From the NCBI GenBank assembly GCA_016210425.1, contig JACQUE010000058.1, positions 1 through 11,340 on the forward strand: DNA of 11,340 bases. Direction: 5' to 3'. Positions within the stretch are counted from its first letter, which is position 1. The number at the start of each line of letters is the position of its first letter. Positions 4,824-6,804 of the stretch are shown in pieces. The stretch is from Chloroflexota bacterium. GTDB taxonomy: Bacteria > Chloroflexota > Dehalococcoidia > JACQUE01. Made by a program: the position numbers and the translations under genes. Below the pieces are notes generated by a model, which searched no databases, was not told where the DNA came from, and worked only from the letters and a program-made list of their open reading frames with translations.

Positions 4824-4859
4824 TTGACAAGATCAGAATTAAGGCCTTGACAAGATCAG
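4824..4859 (+). repeat. Direct repeat of TTGACAAGATCAG in the promoter region
   Basis: Two exact 13-bp copies, TTGACAAGATCAG, at 4824-4836 and 4847-4859, spaced 23 bp start to start. The downstream copy supplies the -35 of the promoter below. The upstream copy has no matching -10 at 16-18 bp, so it may be a binding site or a duplication. Confidence 0.8.
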
Positions 4860-4875
4860 CTTTCGGCGCTAGAAT
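4847..4875 (+). promoter_or_regulatory. Sigma-70 promoter for the riboswitch transcript
   Basis: TTGACA (4847-4852), a 17-bp spacer and TAGAAT (4870-4875) make a near-consensus housekeeping promoter. Transcription would start near 4882, about 60 nt before the riboswitch aptamer. Confidence 0.85.
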
Positions 4876-4942
4876 ACACTCAAGTTCATGTTGTCACAAA
4901 TCTGGGTGAATGTGGGTGGAGGTTATTAAAACAGAAGAAAGT

Positions 4943-5055
4943 GACCGACGCCTAATCCTGGCTGGGAACGGGGGATCCAACCTCTTGGGGTGAATCTCGT
5001 CTCGGCGAGAAGGGTGACCTTTCCACCCTAACCCGTCAGCTAACCTCGTCGGCGT
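4943..5055 (+). ncRNA. c-di-AMP riboswitch (ydaO/yuaA leader)
   Basis: Structured leader that binds cyclic di-AMP, usually as a genetic OFF switch. Conserved blocks are visible in order: CGCCTAATCC (4949-4958), GGGAACGGGGGATCCAAC (about 4964-4981), TTGGGGTGAATCTC (about 4985-4998), AGGGTGACCTTTCCACCCT and ACCCGTCAGCTAACCTCG. These last two match the class signature closely. The closing stem P1 is CCGACG (4945-4950) with CGTCGG (5047-5052). The 3' strand of P1 (TCGGC, 5049-5053) can alternatively pair with GCCGA (5075-5079), the 3' arm of the following terminator. Ligand binding would therefore free the terminator, consistent with OFF logic (inference). The gene downstream is a small zinc ribbon rather than the usual K+ transport or cell-wall genes. 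Confidence 0.93.
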
Positions 5056-5057
5056 TG

Positions 5058-5096
5058 AAAGGCCTTTCGCATGTGCCGAAGGCCTTTTTCTGTTTT
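5058..5096 (+). terminator. Riboswitch-controlled intrinsic terminator
   Basis: AAAGGCCTTTCG (5058-5069) pairs with CGAAGGCCTTT (5077-5087), with one bulged base, and is followed by a U-rich run to 5096. It starts directly after the aptamer P1 stem and shares bases with the proposed antiterminator, so it is the expression platform. Confidence 0.88.
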
Positions 5097-5169
5097 CTAG
5101 AGGAAGCCGGCACTTATCGAGATTGGTTGTAGCTGTTGGATCGTATAAACGAGGAGAGGAGTCAGGAAG

Positions 5170-5352
5170 ATGCAAGTGGTTGCTCGGTGTCCTAGGTGCA
5201 GCGGATATCTCATTAAGGAGCGCGATTACCTGGGCATCTATCTCACGTGCCTGCAGTGTGGCAACAGCATAGATCTGAAGACGATGACAGGCGCGCATGC
5301 ACCGGACCGCCCGCTAAGCCGGCGGTTGCCTTCACCCGATAGGTACGGATAG
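5170..5352 (+). CDS. Small zinc-ribbon protein under c-di-AMP riboswitch control
   Basis: 60-residue protein with one zinc-ribbon knuckle pair: C7-P-R-C10 and C27-L-Q-C30 separated by 16 residues, expected to bind one zinc ion. The core (residues 1-37) is compact; the tail is Arg/Pro-rich and basic, suggesting a flexible end or nucleic-acid contact (inference). There is no signal peptide or membrane segment, so it is likely cytosolic. The ATG at 5170 follows a purine-rich stretch with GGAGAGGAG and, nearer, AGGAAG immediately before the start. It is the only gene between the c-di-AMP riboswitch terminator and the shared terminator at 5399-5427, so it is the direct target of that switch. I recognise the ribbon type but not a specific family; regulation or nucleic-acid binding is possible, not shown. 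Confidence 0.8.
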   Translation: MQVVARCPRCSGYLIKERDYLGIYLTCLQCGNSIDLKTMTGAHAPDRPLSRRLPSPDRYG

Positions 5353-5398: not shown

Positions 5399-5430
5399 AA
5401 AGCTACCCCCCTTGCGGGGGTAGCTTTGCT
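5399..5430. terminator. Bidirectional intrinsic terminator shared by convergent genes
   Basis: AAAGCTACCCCC (5399-5410), loop CTTGC and GGGGGTAGCTTT (5416-5427) form a perfect 12-bp stem. It is flanked by an A run on the left and a T-rich stretch on the right, so it can stop both the zinc-ribbon transcript (+) and the cytochrome operon (-). The minus-strand cytochrome stop codon (5403-5405) and its last PPQGG codons lie inside the hairpin. Confidence 0.9.
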
Positions 5431-6125
5431 TTTGGCGACTGTTTATCCTGCCGGGCGGCCCATCGCCCGTAGTGTTTCTTCGCCCACTCCGCCGACACTC
5501 GCCCCGTGATCATACCTCGCAATGAGGCGCGAGTACCAGGATGGATGGCCGCGAAGTAGACGTGGGCGGCCAGCACGAGGGCTGCCGCAAATGCCAAGAG
5601 GTCATGCCAATCGAGGCTGTGGCCAACGAGGTCTATCGGGAGCGCATTGCGGCTGAGCATCTGCGCCAGCAGGACCGAGCCGGTAACGGCGAGCCCTCCG
5701 GCAAAGGCAATCGTCAGCAGGACATTCACCTTCTGCGCCGAAGCGTACTTCCCCTGCGGCTGCAACCGCTCTCGTAGCTGTGGGAAAAGCATGGGTAGGA
5801 CCAGGAGCCTCGCCAGGTCCTTGCGATCCCAGGCGAGGGCCTTCTTGATATCATCGCCGATGCCCCTGGGCCAGCCCAGTAGCACAACGCCAAGCAGCAA
5901 CACGGTGGATAGCGCGCCTAGGAGCCCGTGCAGCAGGGGAATCAGCCGGTAAGGGCCGACGATGATGGTGTGGGCTTTGGGCAGGAAGTAAAGGGTGAGG
6001 CCGCTGCCAAGAAGCAGCGAGAAGGCGGCTGTATGGGCCCAATGAAGTAGGCGCATGGCAGGGCGGAACCTGAGTATGGTTGCCTTGTCATGCCGGTTGC
6101 CGCTGGCATGGCCGTCAATACTCAT
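5403..6125 (-). CDS. Cytochrome b561-type membrane subunit (formate dehydrogenase gamma-like)
   Basis: 240-residue membrane protein with four predicted helices at about 27-49, 61-84, 133-157 and 174-195. Histidines sit where di-heme b561/FdhI-type subunits place heme ligands: H29 (RLLHWAH), H66 (LLHGLLG), H174 (DWHDLLAF) and H188 (AAHVYFA). It probably passes electrons between the quinone pool and the partner molybdoenzyme. The start at 6125 overlaps the end of the upstream molybdoprotein gene by 11 bp (ATGAGTATTGA), with GAAGGG 5 nt before it; this argues for translational coupling and a complex. A longer frame upstream to 6194 lies wholly inside the partner gene and lacks support. The C-terminus (after about 196) is basic and cytoplasmic in character. 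The last codons and stop are embedded in the terminator hairpin. Confidence 0.87.
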   Translation of the reverse strand: MSIDGHASGNRHDKATILRFRPAMRLLHWAHTAAFSLLLGSGLTLYFLPKAHTIIVGPYRLIPLLHGLLGALSTVLLLGVVLLGWPRGIGDDIKKALAWDRKDLARLLVLPMLFPQLRERLQPQGKYASAQKVNVLLTIAFAGGLAVTGSVLLAQMLSRNALPIDLVGHSLDWHDLLAFAAALVLAAHVYFAAIHPGTRASLRGMITGRVSAEWAKKHYGRWAARQDKQSPKAKLPPQGG

Positions 6126-6804
6126 CGAACCCTTCAAGCCCCGTTGCTTGGCTGGGGCCCATCTTGCGCCGTGGCCCCTTGGAGATGTAGGCATCCGTCG
6201 CCCAGCCCCGCTTCTCCCAGTAGCCGGTCACCTCCGCCGCCGAGAACTCGATGCGGGTCACCCATTTGGCGCTCTTGTAGCCGAACATCTGGGCAACCAC
6301 CATGCGCAGGGGTGCGCCATGCTTTGGAGGAAGGGGTTTGCCTTGCATGTGATAAGCCAAGAGCGAATCGGGAAGAGTGGCTTCGGAGAGAGCCAGGCTC
6401 TCGATGTAGCTTTCGTTGCCGTAGGTGCTTCCCGCGGAGTGCAGCGTAACGTACTTAGCCTCGGGTAGCGGCTTCACGATGCGCATCAGCGTCTCCAGGC
6501 GCACTCCCTCCCACCTGACTCTACCGACTCTCCAACCCTCGACGCATCTGAAGTCGCTGACCTGGCTGGCAGATGGAAGGCCCAGGAGTTCGTGATAGCT
6601 CAGGCGCAGCGGCCTCTCGACGAGGCCATCCACCACCAGTTCCCATGTCGCCGGATCGAAACGCGGGACAGCCCGTTCCACAGTGTTGATGCGGAACCTG
6701 TCGGAGAAGGGCAGTGGGCTGCATGCGGCGATGGCCAAACCCACGCCCGCTCCCAGCAGCCTCAGGAAACGCCTACGCTCCATCCTCTCGTGAAGAAGCC
6801 CCAT
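6115..6804 (-). CDS. Sulfite-oxidase-fold molybdopterin oxidoreductase, Tat-exported
   Basis: 229-residue enzyme of the sulfite oxidase / YedY-type molybdopterin family. The N-terminus has ERRRFLRLLGAGVGLAIAAC (9-28), a twin-arginine-like signal followed by a hydrophobic stretch and a possible lipobox at C28, so the folded protein is probably exported and may be lipid-anchored. In the molybdopterin domain C87 (VSDFRCVEGW) is the expected Mo-ligating cysteine. HGAPLRMVVAQMFGYKSAKWV (162-182) and GYWEKRGW (194-201) are family hallmarks. It lacks the C-terminal dimerisation domain of true sulfite oxidases, fitting the short YedY-like group. The gene overlaps the cytochrome b gene by 11 bp, giving a likely two-subunit periplasmic redox enzyme; the substrate cannot be read from sequence. 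ATG at 6804 has AAGGG 7 nt upstream; ATG at 6783 is an alternative. Confidence 0.88.
   Translation of the reverse strand: MGLLHERMERRRFLRLLGAGVGLAIAACSPLPFSDRFRINTVERAVPRFDPATWELVVDGLVERPLRLSYHELLGLPSASQVSDFRCVEGWRVGRVRWEGVRLETLMRIVKPLPEAKYVTLHSAGSTYGNESYIESLALSEATLPDSLLAYHMQGKPLPPKHGAPLRMVVAQMFGYKSAKWVTRIEFSAAEVTGYWEKRGWATDAYISKGPRRKMGPSQATGLEGFDEY

Follow-up and report, generated by a model that had tools for sequence, protein, structure and literature searches.

A predicted c-di-AMP riboswitch ahead of a 60-aa zinc-ribbon protein, and the recurrence of this arrangement in a Chloroflexota class

A c-di-AMP riboswitch that is followed by a single tiny zinc-ribbon gene raises the question of whether such a protein belongs to the output of c-di-AMP signalling or lies behind the switch incidentally. 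We examined this question for a locus in an 11,340-nucleotide stretch of DNA from a Chloroflexota bacterium of the class Dehalococcoidia (the window), the features of which are collected in Table 1. A preliminary description had listed a promoter, an aptamer, a terminator and then one small CxxC-x16-CxxC protein, and all of these elements are present in that order. It had also taken the ribbon gene to be the only target, which holds for this riboswitch, the unit being monocistronic because the next gene is convergent, but not for the genome, in which two further RF00379 copies (contigs C61 and C178) lie ahead of other genes. The terminator said to close the ribbon gene is likewise only partly borne out: a hairpin is visible by eye between the convergent genes, but the scan at this site returns a minus-strand stem (5420-5407) alone.

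Table 1. Features of the riboswitch and zinc-ribbon locus, in window positions.
Feature	Position	Strand	Source
Sigma-70-type promoter TTGACA-17-TAGAAT	4847..4875	+	Promoter scan
c-di-AMP (ydaO/yuaA) riboswitch aptamer	4939-5069	+	RF00379 covariance-model match
Outer aptamer helix P1 (4949-4952 paired with 5051-5054)	4949..5054	+	Predicted fold
Intrinsic terminator, stem 5059-5064/5081-5086 plus flanking pairs, then T tract	5057..5096	+	Scan, fold
Shine-Dalgarno-like AGGAGAGGAG, 8 nt ahead of ATG	5152..5161	+	Read from sequence
60-aa zinc-ribbon protein, C7xxC10-x16-C27xxC30	5170-5352	+	ORF list
GC-rich hairpin between convergent genes, probably terminator for both	5399..5427		By eye
Cytochrome b561 family gene, convergent neighbour	5403-6194	minus	ORF list, domain search

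The proposed c-di-AMP aptamer was confirmed by the one RF00379 match in the window, which scores 99.9 bits (E 2.9e-23, gathering score 38), spans model positions 1-134 of 134 and has 26 of 26 consensus pairs canonical; the RNA is thus a predicted, full-length c-di-AMP riboswitch. The promoter agrees with the consensus at 11 of 12 positions, and one such site was found against 0.2 expected in shuffles of the region. Reading by eye, TTGACAAGATCAG is present twice in the promoter region (4824-4859), 23 bases apart, with the -35 hexamer in the downstream copy. The terminator hairpin starts within the 3' end of the Rfam match, just past P1, and the ribbon ATG follows the aptamer end by 100 nt. The terminator scan is weak evidence on its own, with 3 terminator-like sites found against 1.0 expected; judged by anatomy alone, the leader has a terminator-type expression platform that could stop the downstream gene. 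The source genome (54% complete, 266 contigs) contains one c-di-AMP synthase (diadenylate cyclase) domain (PF02457, 157.5 bits).

An RF00379 search of 60 genomes, comprising the source genome and 59 relatives, was positive in 21 of them and yielded 59 matches. All downstream regions of this set were read, and a small zinc-ribbon ORF, defined as an ORF no longer than 130 aa that carries a CxxC-x8..30-CxxC pattern and whose start lies within 500 nt downstream of the riboswitch, was found after 17 of the 59 riboswitches, in 13 of the 21 genomes. A class-wide search, whose tighter filters miss some weak matches, detected RF00379 in 155 of 393 genomes. Combining the 59 riboswitches with 32 from the class-wide search (23 new loci and 9 hand-picked rows) gave a sample of 91, and small zinc-ribbon ORFs lie behind 36 of these, the window included. 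The same scan returned 6 of 322 control positions on the same strand and 4 of 584 on the other strand (0.7-1.9%), and 0 of 910 Markov shuffles. A riboswitch before a small zinc ribbon is therefore a recurrent arrangement of the class, far above chance, and small zinc ribbons form the largest recurrent target group in the sample, the next cluster comprising 9 of 91. Elsewhere in the phylum, a search in which 42 of 49 positive genomes belonged to other classes provided 24 riboswitch loci from those classes, one per genome, and a ribbon ORF was found behind none of them; as sampled, the trait looks specific to the window's class.

The linked ribbons were sorted into families by eye, supplemented by clustering. 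Family A, with about 70 aa and the pattern CPRCRGSMIxERDWYGxYxTCIxCGYVHE...RQRRRQPSHGKLRL, makes up 17 of the 36. Among the best 80 of 125 confirmed loci found by protein search, which encode 55 distinct proteins, RF00379 lies directly upstream on the same strand in 75, or in 63 of 67 once 13 loci that encode one of the query proteins are removed, and the exact ending QRRRQPSHGKLRL is found in 74 of the 80. The five unlinked loci have no RF00379 match at E <= 10. Seven of eight family-A genes are linked in the class loci L216-L223, a set that overlaps the 80. With a score of at least 100 bits taken as full length, family A was detected in 135 of the 393 class genomes, which come from 15 family-level groups, and RF00379 is found in 133 of these 135 genomes versus 22 of the other 258, with 236 having neither (counts uncorrected for kinship); the window genome is among the 22 with RF00379 only, though it is half complete. 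A phylum-wide search at E <= 1e-20 found family A in 5 of 301 genomes, all five in the window's class. The preliminary description had made its proposal depend on co-inheritance of riboswitch and zinc ribbon. This stands for small zinc ribbons of the class, by riboswitches, main-family loci and genomes alike, and so more widely than was claimed, although no orthology with family A can be claimed for the window protein.

The linkage has exceptions. In the 60-genome set, 9 of the 13 genomes with full-length family A have it linked, and family A is found without a linked RF00379 in G015, G019, G053, G055, G150 and G318. Three of these (G019, G053 and G150) belong to the family-level clade f20, where riboswitch and family A lie apart in all three examined; the clade contributes 17 of the 135 family-A genomes, with lower scores of about 103-106 bits. 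Within one subgroup of 32 family-A genes, compared in 496 pairs of which 63 encode identical proteins, the codon difference is 0.382 at third positions and 0.032 at first plus second positions, and family A is under purifying selection. In the 75 linked loci, 10-111 nt separate the aptamer from the first in-frame ATG behind it, the three values of 10 being longer start readings, and a terminator-like hairpin is found between aptamer and ATG in 40 of the 75 leaders versus 48 of 225 shuffled leaders. Some family-A leaders seem too short for a terminator hairpin and may act on translation.

Neighbours of family A were clustered using a frame-composition score, since plain ORFs in GC-rich DNA give wrong frames. 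An ABM-domain protein (Pfam-tested on one member) lies downstream in 33 of the 80 loci, and LuxR-type response regulators were seen by eye near 29. Cobalamin-type riboswitches were also observed around family-A genes. In L191, L199, L202, L204 and L205 they lie some 300 to 1,600 bases upstream of the gene, on the opposite strand, and in L167 the upstream distance is about 2,400 bases; the one in L200 directly follows the gene and shares its strand.

The remaining linked ribbons fall into smaller groups. Family B (about 59 aa, MLRP..WWRR...CPEC..YE.RDRYCPGCH..TPEWRYG) accounts for 8 of the 36. A search of 245 genomes gave 13 hits, of which the 11 full-length ones are all linked, 8 by coordinates of the RF00379 searches and 3 by a further check (4 of the 11 are query rows), and the 2 partial ones are not. 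Family C (about 100-115 aa) accounts for 6; of its 16 hits, 9 are linked and 7 unlinked, and every one of the 8 hits that exceed 106 bits is among the linked ones (6 of those 8 are query rows). Five tail-less ribbons, the window protein included, form group D. One protein each of families B and C and the G017 ribbon matched no Pfam or NCBIfam family above cut-off, and neither did the window protein and one family-A protein, which also had no PHROGs match below E 0.02.

In 105 aligned family-A sequences, little or no variation is found at the four cysteines, at E22 and D24 and over most of the tail. One alternative to a partner in transcription or translation is that the zinc ribbon serves as a metal or redox buffer, for zinc storage or as a thiol sensor. 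Four cysteines within 60 aa would suit such a role, but the basic tail RQRRRQPSHGKLRL and the E-x-D-W hairpin of family A are conserved beyond what metal binding needs, so that we regard this explanation as unlikely; the window protein, it must be said, is tail-less. The ribbon may be an effector or regulator in the c-di-AMP response, as the preliminary description suggested, and our guess is that its partner is the polymerase, the ribosome or a nucleic acid.

The window protein carries the cysteine pairs CPRC and CLQC, and an AlphaFold2 model (mean pLDDT 74.4) places strands at residues 3-6, 13-19, 22-27 and 33-35. Its core, residues 5-38, scores 39.9 bits (E 6e-11) against the family-A profile; the best of 2000 full shuffles reached 9.3 bits, and the 60-aa ORF is therefore very unlikely to be a chance ORF. 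It has the family-A core CPxC-x16-CxxCG with the E-x-D hairpin, as generic ribbons do too, has RF00379 directly upstream as family A does, and shares 14 of 32 residues with the family-A protein of Tepidiforma flava (L158). The family-A basic tail is absent: the match stops at residue 38, and shuffled tails reach its score in 341 of 2000 cases. A reading of the window tail 'SRRLPS' as a worn family-A tail was dropped on the same shuffles. In this profile test the generic ribbons of the class range from about 18 to 50 bits, and the window protein falls within these limits. Since it lacks the tail and has a generic-ribbon score, its place in the regulon follows from gene order and not from orthology: it shares its superfamily and its switch with the linked ribbons, but orthology with family A is unproven. 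The homologue search proposed in the preliminary description found none for the 60-aa protein among 5.8 billion sequences, in a search that needs shared 5-residue words.

These properties bear on a second alternative, in which the class-wide association is real and the window pair is incidental, a generic ribbon having come to lie behind a riboswitch outside the regulon's function. The missing tail and the generic score are compatible with it, and such ribbons are common, the window protein having matches at E <= 0.001 in 28 of the 59 other genomes (some of these being family A). Against it, the gene order, the 100-nt spacing and the single-gene form resemble those of the linked families, and control positions are rarely positive in the same scan. 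Furthermore, tail-less ribbons also lie behind riboswitches in G017, G152, G242 and G251 (the last at 380 nt), and in G026 an 84-aa tail-less ribbon is the second gene, 16 nt after a 598-aa lipoprotein-like gene behind the riboswitch. In favour of an incidental pair, only two of 30 generic ribbon matches to the window protein in the 60-genome set, both on G026:C101, share a contig with a riboswitch. On balance, an incidental pair appears improbable, and we favour membership in the recurrent arrangement.

The direction of control was considered from the leader layout. P1 and the terminator form together in the predicted fold (-59.3 kcal/mol), the usual OFF layout, and excerpts of PMC7288161 describe B. 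subtilis KimA and KtrAB as negatively regulated by c-di-AMP riboswitches. Because of this layout and precedent, c-di-AMP most likely switches the window ribbon OFF, so that the protein would be made at low c-di-AMP. By analogy with known ydaO riboswitches, high c-di-AMP would stabilise the aptamer at P1, the terminator would form and transcription would stop; as c-di-AMP falls, RNA polymerase would read through and the zinc ribbon would be made. The opposite polarity, in which c-di-AMP binding raises zinc-ribbon expression, is very unlikely: the terminator is already present in the unconstrained fold, where ligand binding might in principle break it up, but both the coexistence of the two helices and the B. 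subtilis cases speak for OFF control. A two-state antiterminator was also tried and is not favoured, as constrained folds of the window leader gave no competing antiterminator of equal stability, and an enforced one was 4.8 kcal/mol worse than P1 in a transcript ending at 5080. Finally, that the ORF is not a gene and the riboswitch ends in an untranslated RNA is hardly credible, for the missing whole-protein homologue is outweighed by the core E-value, the Shine-Dalgarno-like sequence and the purifying selection on the family-A relatives.

Sister targets set the physiological frame for the zinc ribbons. A cluster of the GT20 trehalose-phosphate-synthase type lies behind 6 of the 91 riboswitches (one member tested, 245.6 bits) and an MFS cluster behind 4 (one tested, 37.6 bits); a sulfate permease with a STAS domain (275 bits) lies behind one. 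In the cluster behind 9 of 91, one of two members tested is a family-2-type glycosyltransferase (29.0 bits, cut-off 27), and the second had no Pfam match at E <= 1e-5.

Several further proteins were observed behind riboswitches. In the window's genome, the copy at G000:C61:3087-3217 (L008) precedes a protein of about 56-60 aa with the motif F.xYY..L...xPxAxEA..xY, as does G026:C34:7691-7812 (L098); the two proteins are identical at 10 of 26 residues (E 3e-05 for that single comparison), and the C61 protein has no Pfam match. Behind the genome's third riboswitch (G000:C178:1034-1162, minus strand; L009) lies a lipoprotein-like protein of 172 aa that has two CxxCH motifs and matches Cytochrome_C554 marginally, at 22.0 bits against a cut-off of 20.8. 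The motif 'GIDDLAKYRIVxFL', in this or a variant form, is found in a protein of about 150-165 aa behind riboswitches in L261, L268 and L273, from other classes, and in G006:C235 (L094); no Pfam family matched the G006 copy over its first 110 residues, and we would guess that it is perhaps a winged-helix regulator. Similar proteins of about 87-119 aa with 'LRNGxxVAxLxEGDPLRyxLxL' follow riboswitches in G017:C30 (L225), behind the ribbon, and in G184:C6 (L073), as the first gene.

Taken together, these data make it probable that the locus belongs to a recurrent switch-before-ribbon pairing, with OFF control by a terminator and a stress-induced adaptor as its product. The c-di-AMP level falls under low K+ or osmotic stress. 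The weakest part of this model is the adaptor itself, which would bind RNA polymerase, the ribosome or nucleic acid and would be expressed alongside the genes for trehalose synthesis, glycosyltransferases and transporters behind sister riboswitches. A more far-reaching reading, which we offer only tentatively, is that tiny ribbons of at least three separately clustered families, each recruited behind the switch and the largest with a near-invariant basic tail, may be a main output of c-di-AMP riboswitches in this class, made at low c-di-AMP and adding a second regulatory layer through RNA polymerase or the ribosome. The near confinement of a conserved, unnamed family to switch-carrying genomes (133 of 135) suggests that c-di-AMP signalling has a branch that is still unstudied. 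The pairing with family A can be tested in an isolate, Tepidiforma flava YIM 72310, whose complete genome has the two adjacent.

Known ribbons of the RPB9/RPC10/TFIIB type (PF02150, PF08271) have the CxxC..CxxC beta-ribbon in common with the window protein, and the best-ranked Foldseek matches are Pol III subunit ribbons. The fold matches are weak, with Foldseek E-values of 0.039 and above and a VIA Z of at best 3.6, and scores against the Pfam ribbon families (Lar, TFIIB, RPB9, LysW) stay below the curated cut-offs, the best being 17 bits (Lar) against 28.6. ZifS of Thermus thermophilus (TTHA0897, PDB 8yoz), a small zinc-finger protein, has 16% identity and a Z too low for a safe match. The dual CXXC motif small (seleno)protein family NF041197 of NCBIfam is likewise small with two CxxC motifs, and the window protein scores 21.1 bits against its cut-off of 40. 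A literature search that covered few subscription papers found no zinc-ribbon targets of c-di-AMP riboswitches described. The switch itself resembles known RF00379 (ydaO/yuaA) riboswitches in its full aptamer and terminator-type expression platform. Its targets set it apart: c-di-AMP is widely studied, yet the riboswitch targets named in the excerpts of PMC7288161 are genes of cell-wall metabolism, osmoprotectant synthesis and transport, sporulation and K+ transport, whereas the top target group in the sample of 91 riboswitches from the window's class is small zinc ribbons.
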